Positions 14,307-18,535 of a DNA stretch of 64,000 nucleotides are shown here, one piece after another. A model generated the notes under the pieces. It was not told the origin of the DNA. It did not search any database and worked only from the letters and a program-made list of their open reading frames with translations. The position numbers and the translations under genes are program-made. How positions within the stretch are numbered: position 1 is the stretch's first letter; every line of letters begins with the position of its first letter. The stretch lies in the NCBI RefSeq assembly GCF_011927665.1, contig NZ_JAATJA010000001.1, positions 1,469,019 to 1,533,018 of the forward strand, in the 5' to 3' direction. Source of the DNA: Desulfobaculum xiamenense (GTDB lineage Bacteria > Desulfobacterota > Desulfovibrionia > Desulfovibrionales > Desulfovibrionaceae).

Positions 14307-14780
14307 TCAGCCGGGAAGTCTCTCCCGGCGCACCAGCGTTTCGCGGATGGCATGCAACACCATCTCCCATGTCATGGGCTTGCCTATGAATCCGTCCATA
14401 CCAGCATCCATAAACGACTGCACATCCTCCGGCGTACTATGAGCCGTCATCGCAATGATGGGGATTTCCGGATCGAGAACACCGGAGTCCGCCTTGCGTA
14501 TGCTTCGTGCAGCCTCGTCTCCGCTCATGCCCGGCATGCGAATATCCATGAGGACGAGATCATATGACGCTTTGCACAGCTCCTCGATGGCCTTTCGACC
14601 ATCGGACACCGCCTTCACGCGATGCCCGTAGCGCCGCAGTATCATCAACGCAAAGGTCTGATTCACGGCGTTGTCTTCGACCAGCAGGATATTGAGACGC
14701 GGAAGATCGGGCACTCCGACGGCTGCATCCCCCTGCGCCGCACGACAGGAAACCGATGGATTCACCTTTTTCTCTTCCAT
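14307..14780 (-). CDS. Stand-alone response regulator receiver domain
   Basis: A 157-residue protein: a 30-residue lead, then one CheY-like receiver. The acidic pair (LLVEDNAVNQ), the phospho-acceptor Asp (LVLMDIRMPGMSG), Thr/Ser (AMTAHST) and Lys (FIGKPM) are all present, so it should be phosphorylated. The EDNAVNQ motif is typical of receivers from hybrid histidine kinases, but no kinase part is found upstream on this strand. There is no output domain, so it may pass phosphate to a phosphotransfer protein or act by protein contact. A sigma-54-like sequence and a sigma-70-like sequence lie upstream. Confidence 0.85.
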   Translation of the reverse strand: MEEKKVNPSVSCRAAQGDAAVGVPDLPRLNILLVEDNAVNQTFALMILRRYGHRVKAVSDGRKAIEELCKASYDLVLMDIRMPGMSGDEAARSIRKADSGVLDPEIPIIAMTAHSTPEDVQSFMDAGMDGFIGKPMTWEMVLHAIRETLVRRERLPG

Positions 14781-14899
14781 GCGTTCAACAACCCTCGGGA
14801 TGCTTCGCGGCGCACGGAAAGCGAAACATCCGGCGTTCGGCGGAGCGCGTCATTCCCGGGATGCCACCCCCCGGAAACAACACCTCCATGGACGGCCAC

Positions 14900-14914
14900 G
14901 GCACAAAATGTGCC
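14900..14914 (-). promoter_or_regulatory. Sigma-54-like promoter and palindrome upstream of the receiver gene
   Basis: Read on the minus strand, TGGCAC-N5-GTGC has the GG-N10-GC spacing of -24/-12 promoters, with one mismatch from TTGC. The same bases form a palindrome (GGCACA-AAA-TGTGCC), so an operator is an alternative reading. Confidence 0.35.
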
Positions 14915-14978
14915 ATTCCACAACCTGGAACACACGTCTTCCACCGAAACGACTCCGCAAATCTTTCAACCTTTGTAG

Positions 14979-15009
14979 ATTGTAAAGAACATTTCCTCTT
15001 TTTTGTCAA
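14979..15009 (-). promoter_or_regulatory. Possible sigma-70 promoter for the receiver gene
   Basis: On the minus strand TTGACA (15009-15004) precedes TACAAT (14984-14979) with a 19-nt spacer; an overlapping TTTACA gives a 17-nt spacer. The leader to the ATG at 14780 would be near 190 nt. Confidence 0.4.
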
Positions 15010-15163
15010 TACATTCGACACCTCCCGCACCCAAGCATGATCAGCGTGTCGTCATAACAAAATGCATGATTCAAAACTGTCAACGCATTTGCCATGCATC
15101 GCCAGAGCGTCCTCCCTGCACAACTCTGCACATAATCCCATTTAATTCGATGCATTACAGCAT

Positions 15164-15501
15164 TCATCCACAATGACATGACTGATTCTACCCCCTACCT
15201 CACGCCCCGCGACCGGCACGGCCTCCTGTGTCCCACACTCCGCTACGCCCGTCGTCCACAACCCAACACCACGTTCCACACCCGTTGCCTGCATTTCTCC
15301 ATTTTGGAAGCTTATATGCAACGAGCTCAGAATACGTCTTCAAAGATTTTCATAGCTCCGATTTACACGCATTTTCTGCCATTACCATGCAGCGGCGGAA
15401 CATTCTTTTCCACAAGCGGAGCATACATTAGACGCTATTTCAGGATGATAGCCGCAAACCACATGTGAAAAACACTGTGAATGACTTCGCCATCATCCAC
15501 A
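15164..15501 (+). repeat. Cluster of DnaA-box-like nonamers
   Basis: TCATCCACA (15164), TCGTCCACA (15252), CGTTCCACA (15272), TTTTCCACA (15406) and TCATCCACA (15493) share the CCACA core and one orientation; a weaker CATTCCACA is at 14914. The consensus TTATCCACA is matched at 8 of 9 positions by three of them. They lie upstream of an RNR operon in a gene-free, AT-richer stretch. Confidence 0.35.
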
Positions 15502-15861
15502 TCATCCGCAAAACCGCACGGAATACTTGCGTTTTCGACGACAAGCATTTTCCGGGACTCCCCTTTACCTCCCCGCCCTTTTGGACTATGTTCTTGAGAC
15601 TTTGTTACGTTTCTTTAACTCCCTCAAATAACTACTTTTTCAAACAGCAAGGAACGCTTCGGCACCCGCCGCCCGAACCGCCGGACGGCCAGACGCCCGC
15701 CCCTCGTCGGCCTTTCGCACACCCTGCGAAGCCGATGAAGACGGCCAGATGAACGCCGCAAACGAGACTCAAACCGCCTTGCATTCCGCCGCTCGCGCAT
15801 CGGTGTCGCCTGCGGCCTTCGACATGAACCGATGAAACACCAAGGATCAGGAACGCGGCAC

Positions 15862-16611
15862 ATGGAACCCTGGAAATTCGTACGTGGTTTCGAGCGATTC
15901 AGCCTTTGCGACTGGCCCGGAAACACGTGCTGCGTGGTTTTTCTCGGGGGGTGCAACCTGCACTGCCCCACCTGTCATAACGGCGAGATGGCCTGGCGGC
16001 ACGAAAGCCTGCCCCGCATCGACAAGACCGCCCTGCTCGGGTTCCTCTCCCGACGGGCGAAATGGTTGGACGGCATCACCGTCACCGGCGGCGAACCGAC
16101 CACCGTGCCTGGGCTTTCTACCTTCCTCGCCGACCTCGGCTCGGCGGGCCTGCCCATCAAGCTCGACACCAACGGCATGCGACCCGACGTGGTGCGCGAG
16201 CTGGCGGCCACCGATCTGGTCAAGACCTTCGCCGTGGACGTGAAAGGCCCCTTCGCCAAATATCCCGCCCTCACGGGCAACGCCGTCGACGCCGCCGAAG
16301 CGCGCGCGAACATCGAACAGATATTCGACCTCGCGCGCTCCGCTCCCGGACGCTTCTACTTCAGGACCACCAAGGTCCCCATGCTCACGGACGAAGACAT
16401 CGAGACGGTCCGCGGCTATCTGCCCGCGGGTTTTGCCCTAACCGAACAAAAGTACGTTGCACCTCGGAGGACGCCAGATGCCCAAACAGATTCTCAAACG
16501 GGACGGTTGCCTGGAGACATGGTCGCGGGATCGGATTGCGAATGCCATATTCAAGGCCCTCAAGGCCAACGGCATCAAGGATCCGCTGCTCTCCAAGCGG
16601 TTGGCTCGTAA
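15862..16611 (+). CDS. nrdG: Anaerobic ribonucleotide reductase activating protein
   Basis: A 249-residue radical SAM enzyme that generates the glycyl radical on NrdD. The [4Fe-4S]/SAM motif CNLHCPTCHN (CX3CX2C) is near residue 42, followed by ITVTGGEPTTVPGL and KLDTNGMRPDVV, typical of NrdG-type activases. ATG 15862 is chosen because AGGA precedes it; ATG 15832 would add ten residues without a site. The frame does not close before nrdD but runs 134 bases into it, so the last 45 or so residues (after YVAPRR) are read out of frame from the nrdD start region. Either this is a long natural overlap or a shift near 16460 hides an earlier stop. Confidence 0.88.
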   Translation: MEPWKFVRGFERFSLCDWPGNTCCVVFLGGCNLHCPTCHNGEMAWRHESLPRIDKTALLGFLSRRAKWLDGITVTGGEPTTVPGLSTFLADLGSAGLPIKLDTNGMRPDVVRELAATDLVKTFAVDVKGPFAKYPALTGNAVDAAEARANIEQIFDLARSAPGRFYFRTTKVPMLTDEDIETVRGYLPAGFALTEQKYVAPRRTPDAQTDSQTGRLPGDMVAGSDCECHIQGPQGQRHQGSAALQAVGS

Positions 16612-18535
16612 GGTCGAATCAAAGCTCGCTGGCATCGAGGTTCCCGAGCAGGAGCACGTGCAGGACATGGTGGAGCAGGTACTCATGGAGTCCCGCCTCT
16701 ACGCCGTGGCCAAGAAATACATCATCTATCGCGAGAAGCGCCGCGAGTTCCGCGCGCACGACAACGCCTACCTGAACGTCAAGGACACCATCGACAACTA
16801 CATGTCCAAGGCGGACTGGCGCGTCGCGGAAAACGCCAACATGTCCCACTCGTTCCAGGGACTGATGCTGCACCTTTCCGGCTCCATTCAGGCCCGCTAC
16901 GCCCTTGAGAAGTATCCCGAGGAAGTGCGCCTTGCCCACGAGCACGGCTACTTCCACATCCACGACCTGTCCTTCGGTCTGGCCGGGTACTGCGCGGGCT
17001 GGAGCCTGCGCGATCTGCTGCTTGAAGGCTTCAACCTCGAAGGCCGCTCGTGCGCCGGTCCGGCCCGGCATTTCGACTCTGCGCTCGGCCAGATGGTCAA
17101 CTTCCTCGGCACGCTCCAGAACGAGTGGGCCGGTGCGCAGGCCTTCAACAACGTAGACACCTACCTCGCGCCCTTTATCCGGCACGACGGTCTCGACTAC
17201 GACGACGTGCTGCAGGCCATGCAAAAGTTCGTGTTCAACCTGAACACCACCTCGCGATGGGGCGGCCAGAGCCCGTTCACGAACCTCACCTTCGACCTCG
17301 CCTGCCCGAAGCATATCAAGAACGAGGCGGTCATCGTCGGCGGCAAGCTCCTCGATTCGACCTACGGCGAGTACGAGCAGGAGATGGAGTGGATCAACAG
17401 GGCGTTCCTGGAAGTCATGCTCAACGGCGACAGCAACGGCCGCATCTTCTCCTTCCCCATCCCCACCTACAACATCACCGGCGACTTCCCGTGGGAGTCC
17501 GAGATCGGCGAACTGCTGCTGAAGCTCACTGCGAAGTACGGCGTCCCCTACTTCCAGAACTTCATCAACTCGGACATCAGCCCCGAAGACGTGCGCTCCA
17601 TGTGCTGCCGGCTCAAGATGGACCTGCGCGAGCTGCGCAAGAAGGTTGGCGGACTCTTCGGCGCGGGCGACCTCACCGGCTCCATCGGCGTGGTTACCCT
17701 CAACCTGCCCAAGCTCGCCTACCTCTCACAGGGCGAGGAGGACTTCCTCGACCTCATCCGCGAATATGCAGAGCTGGCGCGTGACTCGCTGGAGTTCAAG
17801 CGTAAGCTCATCAATGACAACCTCGAACGCGGCATGTTCCCGTGGTCGCACCGCTACCTGAAGAATGGCTTCAACGGCCATTTCTCCACCATCGGGCTTG
17901 TCGGCGGACACGAGGCCTGCCAGAACCTGCTCGGCAAGGGCATCGAGACTCCGGGCGGAACGCGGCTCATGCAGCGCGTGCTCACGCATCTGCAGGACAT
18001 CACCGCACGCTTCCAGGAGGAGACCGGCCACCTCTATAACCTCGAAGCCACTCCGGCCGAGGGAACGAGCTACCGGCTGGCCAAGATCGACAAGGCCCTC
18101 TACGCGGACATCAATGCCTCCGGCAACGGCGTGCCCTACTACACCAACTCCACCGCGTTGCCCGTCGGCATCTCCGACGACGTCATCTTCGCGCTGGAGC
18201 ATCAGGACAAGCTGCAGCCCATGTACACCGGCGGAACGGTGTTCCACACCTACCTCGGCGAGGCGGTCAGCGACACCACTGCCCTGAAGAACTTCATCGT
18301 GCGCACCTTCACCAACACGAAGCTGCCGTTCCTCTCCATCACGCCGACCTTCTCGGTCTGCAACGAGCACGGCTACATCCCCGGCGAACACTTCACCTGC
18401 CCCACCTGCGGCAAGGAGGCCGAGGTGTACACCCGCATCGTGGGCTACTACCGCCCGGTCAGCCGCTGGAACAAGGGCAAGCAGGCCGAATACGACGATC
18501 GCGTCACCTTCGAGCACGTCTGCGACCACTGCTGA
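16478..18535 (+). CDS. nrdD: Anaerobic ribonucleoside-triphosphate reductase (class III)
   Basis: A 685-residue glycyl radical enzyme that makes deoxyribonucleotides without oxygen. An ATP-cone (1-90, starting KQILKRDGCLETW) gives allosteric control. The barrel has the NrdD motifs NTTSRWGGQSPFTNLTFD and HSFQGLMLHLSGS. Near the C-terminus a zinc ribbon begins CPTCGKE and the glycyl radical site is RIVGYYRPVSRWNKGK. A second cysteine pair, CDHC, is at the very end. The start at 16478 has CGGAGG at 16465-16470. It overlaps the end of nrdG by 134 bases and should be co-transcribed with it. A strong terminator follows. Confidence 0.95.
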   Translation: MPKQILKRDGCLETWSRDRIANAIFKALKANGIKDPLLSKRLARKVESKLAGIEVPEQEHVQDMVEQVLMESRLYAVAKKYIIYREKRREFRAHDNAYLNVKDTIDNYMSKADWRVAENANMSHSFQGLMLHLSGSIQARYALEKYPEEVRLAHEHGYFHIHDLSFGLAGYCAGWSLRDLLLEGFNLEGRSCAGPARHFDSALGQMVNFLGTLQNEWAGAQAFNNVDTYLAPFIRHDGLDYDDVLQAMQKFVFNLNTTSRWGGQSPFTNLTFDLACPKHIKNEAVIVGGKLLDSTYGEYEQEMEWINRAFLEVMLNGDSNGRIFSFPIPTYNITGDFPWESEIGELLLKLTAKYGVPYFQNFINSDISPEDVRSMCCRLKMDLRELRKKVGGLFGAGDLTGSIGVVTLNLPKLAYLSQGEEDFLDLIREYAELARDSLEFKRKLINDNLERGMFPWSHRYLKNGFNGHFSTIGLVGGHEACQNLLGKGIETPGGTRLMQRVLTHLQDITARFQEETGHLYNLEATPAEGTSYRLAKIDKALYADINASGNGVPYYTNSTALPVGISDDVIFALEHQDKLQPMYTGGTVFHTYLGEAVSDTTALKNFIVRTFTNTKLPFLSITPTFSVCNEHGYIPGEHFTCPTCGKEAEVYTRIVGYYRPVSRWNKGKQAEYDDRVTFEHVCDHC

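Follow-up and report, generated by a model that had tools for sequence, protein, structure and literature searches.

The window, that is, the whole stretch of 64,000 nucleotides analysed here (C1:1469019-1533018 of a 3.64-Mb genome in 8 contigs), contains a gene-free stretch flanked on one side by a gene for a receiver-only response regulator on the minus strand and, on the other, by nrdG-nrdD on the plus strand (Table 1). From the start of the receiver gene (14780) to the ATG of nrdG (15862) this gap measures 1.08 kb, and its G+C content, 53% over the 1,051 bp scanned (14781-15831) as compared with 61-66% in the 8-kb blocks of the window, bears out the AT-richer region devoid of genes described in the original prediction; C and G account for 34% and 19% of its bases, respectively. 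The product of 15862-16611 is identified as NrdG, the activase of class III ribonucleotide reductase (RNR), from its position before nrdD and from its relatives, the closest of which among named records belong to Pseudodesulfovibrio, Desulfovibrio and other Desulfovibrionaceae and Desulfovibrionales. The nrdG frame stays open for 134 bp into nrdD (window 16478-16611). The response regulator gene has a DNA match at the corresponding place in the genus mate (L008), and it is not thought to be the target of the sites described below.

Table 1. Genes, promoter-like elements and DnaA-box-like sites around the gene-free stretch (window coordinates).
Feature	Position	Strand	Basis or remark
Response regulator, receiver-only, divergent	14307..14780	-	Pfam Response_reg 94.6 bits
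Listed nonamer CATTCCACA	14914..14922	+	TCCACA core; counterpart in relatives not seen
Distal box (tentative), TCATCCACA, 300 bp upstream of the pair	15164..15172	+	Relatives at similar offset
Listed nonamer TCGTCCACA	15252..15260	+	TCCACA core; counterpart in relatives not seen
Listed nonamer CGTTCCACA	15272..15280	+	TCCACA core; counterpart in relatives not seen
Box 1, TTTTCCACA, 58 bp upstream of the pair	15406..15414	+	Plus-strand box at 56-59 bp, 6/6 loci
Box 2 of candidate double DnaA box, TTTTTCACA	15464..15472	-	E. coli matrix; aligned in relatives
Box 3 of candidate double DnaA box, TCATTCACA, 3 bp from box 2	15476..15484	-	E. coli matrix; aligned in relatives
Box 4, TCATCCACA, 8 bp past the pair, opposite orientation	15493..15501	+	Counterpart at +29, 4/6 loci
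–35-like TTTACC, nrdG promoter	15564..15569	+	Conserved; –10-like element 17 bp downstream
–10-like TATGTT, nrdG promoter	15587..15592	+	Conserved in relatives
nrdG, class III RNR activase (radical SAM)	15862..16611	+	Pfam Radical_SAM 52.1 bits, Fer4_12; ORF
nrdD, class III ribonucleotide reductase	16478..18535	+	Pfam NRDD 627.5 bits, ATP-cone

The promoter-like elements of nrdG are those conserved in relatives, and a consensus promoter scan returned no promoter at its threshold. Rfam gave nothing credible on the gap and leader and, in a wider scan of 20 relatives at the gathering threshold, no matches; a repeat search found two weak families of two copies each, and no plasmid DNA match was found. 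The genome also encodes a class II RNR (PF02867) and a second nrdD (L005, minus strand, C1 ~914.2 kb), the leader of which contains a cobalamin riboswitch (L005:1803-1963; 56.2 bits, gathering threshold 31.5); Rfam places none in the leader of the nrdG-nrdD of the window, and the two class III copies therefore seem to be differently controlled. The leader of nrdG-nrdD in the genus mate (L008:1311-1477) has a sub-threshold score for an AdoCbl riboswitch (31.3 bits, gathering threshold 50, E 0.0084). NrdR was searched for with TIGR00244, which matched in 9 of 14 control genomes, and was found neither in the genome under study (0/1) nor in its relatives (0/12), so that no encoded regulator for an NrdR-regulated promoter was found in the 13 genomes searched.

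Nonamers with a CCACA core in the gap

The prediction listed six same-strand nonamers with a CCACA core in the gap, half of which differ from TTATCCACA at a single base, and the scan agrees on every point, with six TCCACA-core nonamers on the plus strand, none on the minus strand, and three of the six at one mismatch from TTATCCACA. Two additional CCACA words, TGTCCCACA and CAAACCACA, are also on the plus strand. As for their density, when the gap was shuffled 500 times with its dinucleotides kept, three or more sites within one mismatch of TTATCCACA, both strands considered, arose once, and six TCCACA on the plus strand never; in 20 sampled stretches that total 393 kb of the genome (13 kb of it, L067, from within the window and also counted in the 593-kb sample used below) the maximum on either strand was 3 TCCACA per 600-bp span, as against 6 here. 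Over the whole window, 9 sites lie within one mismatch of TTATCCACA where 4.2 are expected, and exact copies of TTATCCACA number 11 in the genome and zero in the window.

The common orientation of the nonamers is present as claimed but loses its interest as a feature, because C is in excess over G in the gap and the shuffles themselves give a mean of 0.68 TCCACA on the plus strand and 0.07 on the minus strand. Moreover, counterparts in relatives exist for the nonamers at 15406 and 15493 and, more loosely, at 15164; none was seen for those at 14914, 15252 and 15272. A functionless chance cluster in a C-rich, AT-richer spacer would account for this orientation and for the half of the list that has no counterpart, but it is very unlikely, and already hard to keep, in view of the shuffles, the own-genome samples and a layout that stays fixed in DNA that cannot be aligned (see below).

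A candidate double DnaA box and its conservation

The strongest element of the gap is one that the list of CCACA cores had missed: a pair of minus-strand boxes without a CCACA core, separated by 3 bp (15464-15484). It was scored on both strands, at gaps of 2 and 3 bp, with a matrix built from the 13 distinct double DnaA boxes given for E. coli ChIP-seq in PMC11317965; the matrix is independent of the genome under study, and the pair had already been seen in an alignment (A1) before the matrix scan. With 17.53 the pair is the best of the window (the runner-up reaches 10.4), and it outscores every double box in the 593 kb sampled from its own genome, where the maximum is 15.49. A relaxed pattern, TYWTNCACA-N3-TYWTNCACA with at most one mismatch, composed after the pair was seen, matches once in 3.64 Mb, at the pair of the window and with zero mismatches; its backwards control likewise matches once in the genome, and the same pattern with a gap of 2 has zero genome matches. 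Among 39 ORF-free stretches of the own-genome sample (11.9 kb, counted without L067, which lies inside the window), the one upstream of nrdG has the most boxes (4), followed by that upstream of one of two dnaA genes, dnaA-b (3).

The conservation of the pair was followed in the family, where 72 of 119 genomes contain an nrdG match with an E value of at most 1e-30 (73 match rows); this gave 70 upstream regions, with G041, G034 and G031 left out (lengths of note are 467 bp for L099 and 1,262 bp for L086). A promoter of the TTTACC type is found at six loci from four genera, namely in the genome under study, its genus mate G001, G044, G003, G045 and G028. At all six of them the top-scoring double box of the 600 bp is a minus-strand pair with a gap of 3 bp, at a fixed place with respect to the promoter: its start lies 99-101 bp upstream of the –35 element at five loci (101 bp in L086) and 87 bp upstream of it in L008. 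The plus-strand box that precedes the pair by 56-59 bp recurs at the six loci, and the box at +29 at four; the distal plus-strand box, the offset of which was spotted post hoc, lies at –300 to –305 at four loci and at –284 in L009, with none near in L086. Shuffles of the 600 bp reached the pair score in 1, 0, 9, 0, 0 and 0 of 400 cases, the window region itself accounting for 1/400 above its own score, and the reversed matrix scored lower than the true one at all six loci. The pair of L009 is weak (11.84; 9/400 shuffles), with a left box below 6. As blastn of the gap against 29 relatives gave no match outside the flanking genes, the layout of the array has been kept in diverged DNA.

Other groups of relatives present variants of this arrangement. 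In the genus g22 the best double box is a plus-strand pair with a gap of 2 bp at 5/5 loci, its score being reached by 1, 0, 5, 6 and 2 of 400 shuffles, and a third group has one box and no pair, the single TGTGGAAAA box being placed 91-92 bp before CCTGTACA, a conserved promoter word other than TTTACC, in 15/15 cases. When the mean best score is plotted by gap, the peak falls at 3 bp in the TTTACC group (18.4, next 11.1) and at 2 bp in g22 (18.5, next 14.1), and over all 70 regions gaps of 3 and 2 are the highest (8.5 and 8.4, next 7.7); these are the two spacings that DnaA requires in E. coli. The word TTTTCCACA, on either strand, is found in 26/70 regions, whereas the runner-up among 1,260 words with the same base composition reaches 6/70; many of the more distant members of the 70 are without a strong site. 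A palindrome, TTCTARA-N5-TCTAGAA, is also found in 16/70 nrdG upstream regions (L010-L034, L080, L083), and where it accompanies the TGTGGAAAA box it precedes it by 57-58 bp (9/9 cases). In a count over eight genomes, TTCTARA-C-N4-TCTAGAA with at most one mismatch has 0 matches in the genome under study and 1-4 in every one of the remaining seven; in five of these the place upstream of nrdG is among the matches.

Replication origin and the two DnaA paralogs

Boxes clustered in AT-richer DNA are also what an origin of chromosomal replication would present, and this had been mentioned as a less supported possibility for the gap. GC skew refutes it and leaves it a probability close to nil: in the genome under study the skew turns from negative to positive between ~C2:40,000 and ~C2:100,000, a stretch that includes dnaA-dnaN-gyrB, and it is negative in all 8 of the 8-kb blocks of the window, with no turn at the stretch upstream of nrdG. 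In G103, which is assembled in one contig, the turn is at 2.70 Mb, again at dnaA-dnaN-gyrB, and nrdG (1.707 Mb) lies within constant negative skew. The 20-kb stretches around dnaA-a in these two genomes (~C1:2702159 in G103 and C2 ~92 kb in the genome under study) contain no cluster of TTATCCACA-like sites, so that the yardstick used here is that of E. coli, the DnaA box of this family being deduced from that of other bacteria.

Two full-length DnaA paralogs are encoded in each of the 15 genomes searched; the distinction between dnaA-a and dnaA-b was based on linkage to dnaN-gyrB in G000 and G103 and on the Bac_DnaA_C score in the other genomes. The dnaA loci of the genome under study are L001 and L069:10776-12089 (C2), with the dnaN-gyrB-linked dnaA at the skew turn, and the paralog away from dnaN-gyrB has TGTGGAAAACTTTTTACACAG upstream. 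The upstream stretches examined, from some of the 15 genomes, numbered 11 for dnaA-b (the genome under study included) and 9 for dnaA-a. A site scoring at least 12.1 is present in 10/11 of the former (1,001-1,201 bp) but in 2/9 of the latter (800-801 bp), and the word TGTGGAAAA also occurs upstream of dnaA-b, whose upstream region thus carries boxes of the nrdG type, unlike that of the oriC-linked dnaA-a. Since the two box-richest places of the sample lie before an RNR operon and before a dnaA gene, the distribution fits what would be expected of a DnaA regulon. The idea that dnaA-a has lost the residue that we take to be the DNA-contact arginine was dropped, since the alignment shows an arginine at that position.

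These data also bear on the possibility that a transcription factor other than DnaA recognises the conserved sites, their resemblance to paired DnaA boxes being accidental. The oriC region without a cluster of such boxes and the unexplained palindrome 57-58 bp before the box in some relatives would suit such a factor, but only gaps of 2 and 3 bp stand out with a matrix derived solely from E. coli DnaA sites, the same word TGTGGAAAA is found upstream of dnaA-b, and NrdR, the usual candidate, was not found; another factor is, in our opinion, unlikely.

Predicted control of nrdG-nrdD by DnaA and known systems

Taken together, the stretch is probably (at a rough probability of 0.7) the control region of nrdG-nrdD, with a predicted DnaA-binding array ~60-160 bp upstream of the –35 element. 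It combines a same-strand pair of boxes at a spacing within the 2-3 bp range, an RNR operon downstream and two dnaA genes in the same genome, and, judged from sequence and conservation, the array is a real, conserved DnaA-box-like element that is predicted to control the class III RNR. The central proposal made for this DNA, that its class III RNR is under DnaA control, is supported in silico by the tandem pair, its fixed distance from the promoter and the boxes of dnaA-b; the sites first put forward for it fare less well, half of the six nonamers having no counterparts and the best element having escaped notice. In the mechanism that we propose, a DnaA dimer would occupy the pair and a complex enlarged by the flanking boxes would form there; transcription of nrdG-nrdD would then be set by how much DnaA is present or by which nucleotide it carries, so that the anaerobic supply of dNTPs would follow initiation capacity. 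As the search for NrdR in these genomes gave no match, part of the work of NrdR may fall to DnaA. Activation or state-dependent modulation of nrdG is slightly favoured over repression as the predicted effect, since the array sits upstream of the –35 element. That DnaA is the main regulator of class III RNR without NrdR, with dnaA-b mainly a transcription factor tying dNTP supply to replication and dnaA-a initiating at an origin that lacks clustered TTATCCACA-like sites, is a bolder proposal and a rather doubtful one.

The array could also be a titration or conversion site for DnaA, similar to datA or DARS, with the downstream gene incidental. Several boxes within 340 bp, and perhaps the distal box near –300, would be compatible with such a site, and the DARS core of E. 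coli shares with the window a tandem pair with a 3-bp gap and an oppositely oriented box (PMC8682772). In DARS1, however, convergent boxes are 5 bp apart with a tandem box 3 bp further on, whereas in the window the box at 8 bp is divergent and the only convergent neighbour of the pair is the weak box CAAACCACA at 0 bp; L008, from the genus mate, has a convergent box 1 bp from the pair. The DARS-like reading was dropped on this order, a convergent box ~5 bp from the tandem pair not being found, and the fixed distance of the boxes to the nrdG promoter also speaks against a titration or conversion site, which we regard as improbable.

The predicted control of the downstream RNR by DnaA has its closest parallels in E. 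coli. There, DnaA is found in vivo at box pairs 2 or 3 bp apart, and nrdA and nrdD are among the 16 bound regions (PMC11317965). The nrdD (nrdDG) region shares with the window a class III RNR and a double DnaA box with a gap of 2-3 bp upstream (PMC11317965), but the E. coli pair has a gap of 2 bp and lies ~15 bp before the start codon, whereas here the gap is 3 bp and the pair ~100 bp upstream of the –35 element, with additional boxes and with nrdG preceding nrdD. The nrdAB promoter likewise has several DnaA boxes at an RNR promoter, and nrdAB expression can be raised or lowered by DnaA (PMC8203912); it serves, however, a class Ia RNR in an NrdR-bearing species, as opposed to a class III RNR in a genome in which NrdR was not found. 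In slow growth, loss of DARS2 raises NrdD (PMC12371093), and the sign of the DnaA effect predicted here may differ from that in E. coli. Promoters with NrdR boxes also have paired sites before RNR operons, nrdDG included, but those boxes are palindromes ~31-32 bp apart (PMC2892513), and here an NrdR gene was not found.

A search of the open-licence literature at the level of titles found none on DnaA and RNR in Desulfovibrio. If the proposed control is true, the coupling between RNR and DnaA extends past E. coli and its like to anaerobes of another phylum (the named relative Pseudodesulfovibrio is placed in Thermodesulfobacteriota), and it acts on the oxygen-independent reductase, where NrdR is absent. 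The nrdG and dnaA-b promoters would also offer two places at which to distinguish the DnaA paralogs. The conserved sites before nrdG, which resemble those bound by the replication initiator DnaA, suggest that in this relative of the sulfate-reducing desulfovibrios the supply of DNA building blocks without oxygen is tied to replication. The best reading of the locus is thus a predicted new case of an already known kind, the DnaA-controlled RNR promoter, as in E. coli nrdA and nrdD.
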